A stretch of 64,000 bases of DNA. Source: Bolinopsis microptera (lineage: Eukaryota > Ctenophora > Tentaculata > Lobata > Bolinopsidae). Position numbers and translations under genes: made by a program. Shown here piece by piece: positions 32,421-35,400 of the stretch (positions within the stretch are counted from its first letter, which is position 1; every line of letters begins with the position of its first letter). Below the pieces are notes generated by a model. It ran no database searches and was not told where the DNA came from. It saw nothing but the letters and a program-made list of their open reading frames with translations. The DNA is taken from NCBI RefSeq assembly GCF_026151205.1, contig NC_087084.1, positions 2,236,743 to 2,300,742 of the forward strand. Direction: 5' to 3'.

Positions 32421-35400
32421 ATGTTTGCGCGCTTAATGAAGTTACAAATCATAGTTTTACTGGTAAGAATATCGCTGATCTTGGTTTAGGCCATCCGCCA
32501 TATAATATTATTTAGGTCATGATAATATTTCAATATTTCATCACAAAGGTTTCTATCGAAAACTAAATGGTCAATTTTTTTTGAAAACGTAGAATTTTGA
32601 TTTTCGAATCGAGGCCGAATAGTTGTTCATCACTGATGACCTTCCTCAAATGGCAACAATCGGCTACCGACTAGTTCCAAATGTTTGTAACTTAAGCCCG
32701 ATCTCAAGGCTCGAATATTAGAATATTAGAATGCTAAATTATTAGCACGTACAACAAGATTACATCTACGATATTGTCTTCCGAATTGATAAGATAATTA
32801 TGTACTAAAATTGATCCAAATTTAAATATAATCAATATGCGTTTTCGGTTTTACCATAACCAGTTCTATTTATTTGACCATTATATTCACCATACCACTC
32901 GTTTAATTTCAGATAAAGTTAACAATATCGGAGTACTTCTCAGATTAACCACTCGTTTGTTTTCAGATAAAGTTTACAATATCGGAGTACTTCTCAGATC
33001 AACCACTCGTTTGTTTTCAGATAAAGTTAACAATATCGGAGTACTTTTCAGATTAACCACTCGTTCGTTTTCAGATAAAGTTAACAATATCGGCGTACTT
33101 CTCAGATCAACCACTCGTTCGTTTTCAGATAAAGTTAACAATATCGAAGTTCTTCTCAGATCAACCACTCGTTTGTTTTCAGATAAAGTTAACAATATCG
33201 GAGTACTTCTCAAATAAACCACTCGTTTGTTTTCAGATAAAGTTTACAATATCGGAGTACTTCTCAGATTTACCATTCGTTTGTTTTCAGATAAAGTTAA
33301 CAATATCGGAGTACTTCTCAGATTTACCATTCGTTTGTTTTCAGATAAAGTTAACAATATCGGAGTACTTCTCGGATCAACCACTCGTTTGTTTTCAGAT
33401 AAAGTTAACAATATCGGAGTACTTCTCAGATCAACCACTCGTTTGTTTTCAGATAAAGTTAACAATATCGGAGTTCTTCTCAGATCAACCACTCGTTTGT
33501 TTTCAGATAAAGTTAACAATATCGGAGTACTTCTCAGATCAACCACTCGTTTGTTTTCAAATAAAGTTTACAATATCGGAGTACTTCTCAGATCAACCAC
33601 TCGTTCGTTTTCAGATAAAGTTAACAATATCGGAGTACTTCTCAGATCAACCACTCGTTTGTTTTCAGATAAAGTTAACAATATCGGAGTACTTCTCGGA
33701 TGGAGAACATAGCTTTCTGGAACTTTCTGATCAGTGGGAGTACCTGTCAAAGTTTGCTTACTCTAAAAATGGAAATATTGAATTAGTTTGCAAATTTAAC
33801 CGTCCCGATTCTGATGTGAGTATTTGATATTTTGTTTGCAAAGACACATAAACTGTGATTATATCTCGTAATTCAGTAATCTAGCTTCCAATGAGGTTCC
33901 TCAAATGTACCCAAATGAATTTCAACATTCATATCAGAACATTGTTAAGAAGAATCGGAACAAAAGTTGAAATTTAAAAATCCAATTGAAATATTTGGTC
34001 TTGTATTACGTAGACACTAGACATGACTATAGTTTTAGTACTCAATTCAGTTAGTCCATCGATATCACTCCTGATCAAATCCAAAAACTGCTGATGGGAA
34101 ACAATAAACTAATAAACAAACATACTCTTTTCAGGACAAAGTTGATAAAGTGCTGATGGGAAACAATAAACTAATAAACAAACATACTCTTTTCAGGACA
34201 AAGTTGTTAAAGTGCTGATGGGAAACAATAAACTAATAAACAAACATACTCTTTTCAGGACAAAGTTGTTAAAGTGCTGATGGGAAACAATAAACTAATA
34301 AACAAACATACTCTTTTCAGGACAAAGTTGTTAAAGTGCTGATGGGAAACAATAAACTAATAAACAAACATACTCTTTTCAGGACAAAGTTGTTAAAGTG
34401 CTGATGGGAAACAATAAACTAATAAACAAACATACTCTTTTCAGGACAAAGTTGTTAAAGTGGGGTTTTATCAGATGCCAGTAGAATCGTGGGAGAGTGA
34501 CGTTAGATCTAAAAAGAGCTGTGAAGAGAGATTAAGCTTAGCTACATTTACTTTGGAGCTTGTGGTGGAGGAGGACAGAGAGACAGTGAGTATCACCCTT
34601 TAAATCACTCCGCAAATCACACTGTTAGAGAGAGAGAGAGAGAGAGAGAGAGAGAGAGAGAGAGAGAGAGAGAGAGAGAGAGAGAGAGAGAGAGAGAGAG
34701 AGAGAGAGAGAGAGAGAGAGAGAGAGAGAGAGAGAGAGAGAGAGAGAGAGAGAGATAGAGAGAGAGAGAGAGAGAGAGAGAGAGACAGCTTGAGTATCAC
34801 CCTTTAAATCACTCCGCAAATCACACTGTTAGAGAGAGAGAGAGAGAGAGAGAGAGAGAGAGAGAGAGAGAGAGAGAGAGAGAGAGAGAGAGAGAGAGAG
34901 AGAGAGAGAGAGAGAGAGAGAGAGAGAGAGAGAGAGAGAGAGAGAGAGAGAGAGAGAGAGAGAGAGAGAGAGAGAGAGAGACAGCTTGAGTATCACCCTT
35001 TAAATCACTCCGCAAATCACACTGTTAGAGAGAGAGACAGAGAGAGAGAGAGAGACAGTGAGTATCACCCTTTAAATCACTCCGCAAATCACACTGTTAA
35101 TCACTCTTTACAGTCTTCATAATTTGTAAATCACCCTGTAAATCACCATATCTTCAGGGACATCTTTTAAATCACCCGCTACTCGATATTCTTCTCGCAT
35201 ACTTTCTTTCGGTTATAATGCTATTCTATCACATCATGGTAACAAATGGGATCCTGCCAAGATAGCTATCATGCTGCAAATACCACGTGATCAGTGAGCC
35301 ACAGTTTATTGTGTTCAAGATATGGCTCCATTACCAGGTTGTTTCAATTACCAGGTTGTTTCAGTTACCAGGTTGTTTCAGCTTTTCGGTAACCAGGGCA

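Follow-up and report, generated by a model that had tools for sequence, protein, structure and literature searches.

An acceptor-spanning minisatellite at the intron 1/exon 2 border of a predicted TMEM145_N-like gene in the ctenophore Bolinopsis microptera

In the stretch of Bolinopsis microptera DNA analyzed here (64,000 nucleotides, hereafter the window), one gene carries a long run of near-identical splice acceptors directly in front of its second exon. This raises the question of what becomes of these acceptors when the transcript is spliced: they might lengthen the encoded protein by a variable number of repeats, they might regulate its level, or they might simply be removed together with the intron.

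The array and its host gene

TRF places an array at positions 32894-33701 of the window with a period of 54 bp, 15.0 copies, 94% matches, and 0% indels, a regularity that is far beyond chance. Counted from the AG, it resolves into 14 units starting at 32913+54n, followed by the copy that opens exon 2 at 33669; we refer to the 14 × 54 bp at 32913-33668 on the plus strand as acceptor mirage 1, adopting the name introduced in amphioxus for tandem repeats across intron-exon boundaries (PMC3087553). The first-pass annotation had described 14 indel-free 54-bp units before exon 2, which TRF and our unit table bear out, and had assigned 13-14 exon codons to each of them, for which the unit table gives 11: A unit is composed of 33 bp (11 codons, ATAAAG...GAT) that recur at the beginning of exon 2 and 21 bp of intron end, comprising a T-rich polypyrimidine tract and the AG. 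Its consensus reads IKLTISEYFSDQPLVCFQ in the exon frame. Exon-frame stops (TAA) are found in copies 1 and 3 (2 of 14) and copies 4-14 are open, just as had been stated for the last 11 copies. The acceptor AG is intact in 14 of 15 cases if exon 2 is counted with the mirage copies; the exception arises because copy 12 ends in CAA, with AA in place of AG, so that copy 13 has no acceptor at 33561. Upstream, the acceptors of copies 3, 6, 10, 11, and 12 (5 of 14) are identical to the one at 33669 over all 24 preceding bases.

The host gene was modeled by picking splice sites according to GT/AG and phase and afterwards according to agreement with a Mnemiopsis protein. The resulting model is phase-consistent over exons 1-10, all on the plus strand, and encodes 632 amino acids. 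Exon 1 (32421-32462) contains the leader MFARLMKLQIIVLL and ends at the donor gtaaga, exon 2 (IKLTISEYFSDGEHSFLE...) occupies 33669-33815, exon 3 occupies 34445-34585, and exons 4-10 are modeled at 36281-36410, 36775-36904, 37226-37323, 37622-37744, 38152-38306, 39554-39747, and 39913-40651. The donor of exon 9, gtttca, is non-consensus, and exon 10 probably ends earlier than modeled, with the true last exon lying beyond it near 40680, as judged from the Mnemiopsis alignment. Within the searched assembly (264.65 Mb, 232 contigs), the body of exon 2 (query 33702-34080) has one match.

The predicted gene product is TMEM145_N-like: Residues 31-149 match this Pfam family with 27.5 bits, just below the cut-off of 28.1, and its Mnemiopsis relative P0001 reaches 29.4 bits, above the cut-off; GP180_GOLD is matched weakly (E 0.042) in one of these two proteins. 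TMEM145, GPR180, and other GOST proteins are described as a GOLD domain plus seven helices (PMC9711517), and the window protein resembles them in that its TMEM145_N match is followed by hydrophobic segments discernible by eye. A PDB sequence search with the protein gave no match.

P0001, a database protein of Mnemiopsis leidyi that is 68% identical to the window protein, was the one match among 6394 candidates in a protein search, and its N-terminus is informative with respect to the array. Written as leader and exon 2, it reads MFVRLMELHFVFLL-VELTSAEWFSNGEHSFL, compared with MFARLMKLQIIVLL-IKLTISEYFSDGEHSFL in the window gene: The leader of P0001 joins the exon-2 residues directly, at the same place as in the window gene and without a repeat. 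Because this leader continues repeat-free into exon 2, 33669 can be regarded as the ancestral acceptor, and because the same leader stands at the same exon-2 residues in both proteins, the join between exon 1 and exon 2 is supported. The earlier assignment of exon 1 to exon 2 consequently holds, as the ten-exon model keeps phase and both leader and exon 2 align with P0001. The repeated unit furthermore encodes the apparent end of a signal peptide, IKLTIS/EYFSD, with the Mnemiopsis counterpart VELTSA/EWFSN (cleavage site placed by eye). As the unit carries this apparent end, any isoform would presumably retain a cleavage site and begin with identical mature residues.

Acceptor choice and the reading frame

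We consider it likely that mirage 1 is a length-unstable array that leaves with the intron, the spliceosome mainly using the ancestral acceptor at 33669 and the protein remaining unchanged. The seed would have been a short tandem duplication across the intron 1/exon 2 border of the TMEM145_N-like gene, one that could be tolerated since its final copy retained the genuine border; expansion and homogenization of the array in whole 54-bp steps would have followed through unequal exchange or slippage. Exon definition would pick the acceptor nearest to the exon 2 donor, and the array would be removed with the intron. If acceptors 4-12 or 14 were chosen occasionally, the frame would be kept and the signal-peptide end carried along (IKLTIS before EYFSD), so that occasional mis-splicing from copies 4-14 may be tolerable through accidental frame-keeping, which would not apply to the sister arrays described below. 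We infer both the acceptor actually used and the mode of array growth. As five upstream acceptors are identical to 33669 over 24 bases, site strength alone cannot explain a choice of this site. Moreover, of two equal acceptors the donor-proximal one is often favored, which speaks against the removal of the array with the intron, and the eleven consecutive open units of this array (copy A) are compatible with coding use.

How far the upstream acceptors could contribute to the protein was assessed by splicing in silico: Acceptors 1-3 lead to stops after 25, 43, and 25 residues; from acceptors 4-12 and 14, uninterrupted proteins of 650-830 amino acids would result. The claim of the first-pass annotation that alternative acceptors would add 18-residue repeats without breaking the protein thus stands in silico for acceptors 4-12 and 14 and falls for copy 13, the acceptor of which is lost. 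Acceptor choice could accordingly generate a protein family in which the signal peptide is followed by 0-11 additional copies of the 18-residue repeat, and the uninterrupted proteins as well as the signal-peptide end kept by the unit, which would preserve the cleavage site, favor this view. We nevertheless deem such a family unlikely, as the substitutions look neutral, stops occur in 6 of the 25 units of a second copy of the array, the sister arrays are unusable in this way, the Mnemiopsis relative lacks the repeats, and in the published mirages splicing is reportedly undisturbed (PMC3087553, PMC3902484).

The substitution pattern was evaluated in 39 units by counting changes against the consensus as a stand-in for the ancestor, an approach of low power given only 25 distinct changes. 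These comprise 7 synonymous, 15 non-synonymous, and 3 stop changes against a neutral expectation of 5.8, 17.6, and 1.6 (25 changes, kappa 2). In the first 36 bases of the unit, the 17 changes divide into 6, 10, and 1, with 3.8, 11.9, and 1.3 expected; this synonymous surplus, which would lean toward coding use, is slight and not significant-looking. In these small numbers, the types of substitution in the 39 units hence do not clearly point to selection on the 18-residue repeat as a protein sequence. The neutral-looking substitutions speak against a selected coding repeat, as do the stops in the second copy and the chance of keeping the frame, which we estimate at about one in four (1/3 for the length, multiplied by about 0.7 for seven further open codons).

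Alternatively, the array might operate as a non-productive switch in which acceptors 1-3, along with the extra ones of the sister arrays, lead to early stops and mRNA decay, the copy number tuning the protein level. The early stops from acceptors 1-3, the TAA present in unit 1 of both array copies, and the frequent preference for a donor-proximal acceptor would fit this, but the tract of the first acceptor is weaker in both copies (TTTAATTTCAG) and the stop units show no sign of being kept in place; we regard a switch of this kind as improbable.

Sister arrays and an inverted second copy

Two further arrays of the same gene span acceptors, as seen by TRF and in silico splicing. Acceptor mirage 2 (34085-34462, plus strand; 62-bp unit × 6.1, 99% alike) lies at the acceptor of exon 3 and provides five extra acceptors at 34135, 34197, 34259, 34321, and 34383 ahead of the true one at 34445. 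Acceptor mirage 3 (38062-38167, plus strand; 51-bp unit × 2.1) lies at the acceptor of exon 8 and provides one extra acceptor at 38101, which runs into a TAA, ahead of the true one at 38152. All six extra acceptors of these two arrays give premature stops in silico, and frame-keeping is a property of one of the three acceptor arrays of the gene, mirage 1. Because the extra acceptors lead to stops, the full protein needs the exon-proximal acceptor in introns 2 and 7; it would be simplest if the same held in intron 1. A donor region is repeated as well: Four copies of GACAG(CT)TGAGTATC... stand between AG microsatellite at the end of exon 3 (34582-35099, plus strand), of which the first and last keep gtgagt, while a CT insertion has destroyed the GT in the other two. 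A 12-bp TGTTTGTTCGTG array at 37749-37940 starts a few bases from the donor of exon 7.

To gauge how unusual this accumulation is, units of 54, 62, and 51 bp were placed at random in the gene, under the assumption of uniform placement and in a test devised post hoc: Of 200,000 trials, 0.0095% had each of the three units lying across an acceptor, and 0.2% had this for both arrays 2 and 3. Three acceptor-spanning arrays in one gene are thus unlikely by random placement. A chance figure of 8e-5 was discarded, as it rests on an assumed rate of 1%. One could extend these observations to a splicing-driven length generator, in which 14 working acceptors give the mature N-terminus 0-11 additional 18-residue repeats over a range that changes between alleles, and in which the seeding of arrays at acceptors is recurrent and non-random in this gene (3 of 9 acceptors); we think that this combination has little probability.

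Minisatellites are common in the sampled stretches, 18 stretches of 10 kb (180 kb) containing 38 of them with periods of 25-200, about 27 of which have a period of 30 or more. Acceptor-like sites occur in 5 of these 38 arrays. Given a summed unit length of about 2.1 kb and 2.11 sites per kb in the background, about 4.5 would be expected, and such sites are accordingly not enriched in the minisatellites of the 180 kb; the strict definition of an acceptor used here fails to detect the true acceptors in arrays 2 and 3. A looser detector, set after the strict result had been seen, called for an acceptor in the last unit and a reading frame that stays open beyond the array as far as a donor. It returned the three arrays of this gene, which had guided its design, and two others, namely a low-complexity array on the window's minus strand and, in the sampled stretch L008, a dubious one. 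Exons of known position are scarce in this sample, which therefore gives no grounds for calling mirages rare.

Mirage 1 exists in an inverted second copy (copy B; 50603-51988, minus strand) with 25 complete units according to TRF and the unit table, plus a further unit cut by a 100-N gap at 50503-50602. An identical exon 1 accompanies it at 52464-52423, and its exon 2 is not assembled. The surrounding segment is mirrored over a long distance: 22831-33701 corresponds to 64000-50603, and the mirror extends past the window through a 365-bp satellite, at which homology ends, to about C13:2305000 (L006:4257). This second copy may be an allele (a misplaced haplotig) or an inverted duplicate. The two arrays differ in length, with 14 units in copy A and at least 25 in copy B, and the AG at the unit ends is present in 13 of 14 and 24 of 25 units, respectively. 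Their units are partly collinear (A3=B5, A6=B9), and B3-B4 recur identically as B23-B24, a pattern that is expected of unequal exchange or slippage. Stops are located in units 1, 3, 5, 15, 16, and 23 of copy B, and in the array as assembled up to the gap only the acceptors from unit 24 onward avoid them. The "built-in limit" formerly read into the stop copies of mirage 1 is hence not conserved.

Misassembly might be suspected as the source of the array or of its length, given the gap inside the second array and the identity of 89-98% that the adjoining mirrored segment shows outside the arrays in pieces over 250 bp. Yet the units differ in an ordered way, and the two separately assembled copies have a common upstream edge and several common unit variants, which makes an artefact very improbable. 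The second copy has a long AG/CT microsatellite (52774-53225) upstream of its exon 1; part of the flank is repeated on the far side of this microsatellite, which the first copy lacks at the matching place.

Comparison with amphioxus mirages and genomic surroundings

Amphioxus mirages have been described in Adh3, with units of 10-72 bp, and in the globin genes BflGb6 and BflGb9, where BflGb6 has units of 150-160 bp that number 6 and 3 in two haplotypes (PMC3087553); besides Adh, TnC and PGBD5 are given as further mirage genes (PMC3902484). Somatic instability is reported for the Adh3 mirage. The ctenophore arrays resemble the mirages of these two accounts in several respects: The unit spans a splice border (in mirage 1 with 33 bp of exon 2 and 21 bp of intron), the splice signal is present in many but not all units, the number of units differs, in BflGb6 between haplotypes and here between two copies that may be alleles or duplicates, and acceptor as well as donor borders are affected, the authentic border being the end copy. 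They differ in that the host is a ctenophore and not a cephalochordate and that the 54-bp unit is frame-keeping and mostly open; there are more units than in BflGb6, and three acceptor mirages and a donor repeat occur in one gene. In amphioxus, Adh3 data and RT-PCR on the globins suggest that regular splicing is undisturbed, cryptic use of the extra signals being possible (PMC3087553). For the ctenophore gene, P0001 and the stops caused by the sister arrays point the same way, that is, toward regular splicing that would be undisturbed here as well.

Two other systems bear a partial likeness. In intron gain by internal tandem duplication (Rogers 1989; Gao and Lynch 2009, as cited in PMC3087553), an intragenic duplication likewise carries splice signals, but in our case it creates no new intron, and the copied signals are all acceptors of a single, pre-existing one. 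Prawn Rlec lectins likewise show an in-frame repeat number that varies within a protein family, but there the variation is from gene to gene and the repeats are contained within exon 2 (PMC7536079). As a precedent for a repeat number made by acceptor choice they were dismissed, since the alternative acceptor reported for them belongs to exon 5, outside the repeat.

A search of open-access text with limited terms found no ctenophore mirage, the mirages described there being those of amphioxus. New with respect to the literature covered is a ctenophore gene bearing three acceptor mirages, the mirage type itself being known from amphioxus. This suggests that minisatellite-rich genomes of distantly related animal lineages can give rise to mirages. 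Fourteen working, near-identical acceptors beside arrays in which the last acceptor alone can serve constitute a natural test of 3' splice site choice among equals. If the length-generator reading were true, the range of the protein N-terminus would change between alleles as the minisatellite grows.

The window contains further repeats and open frames. Two arrays of a 365-366-bp satellite occupy 19862-22724, and the same satellite is found at the start of L006. Beside the satellite, a 620-residue open frame at 17600-19459 encodes a LINE-like reverse transcriptase domain (PF00078). A 220-bp inverted repeat (27963-28182 and 28462-28681; 99.5% identical) lies next to tandem repeats of 30-32 bp. 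Finally, an open frame at 46195-46962 encodes a PAN domain (PF00024), and another at 47109-47642, without a Pfam match, has a possible membrane helix as judged by eye.
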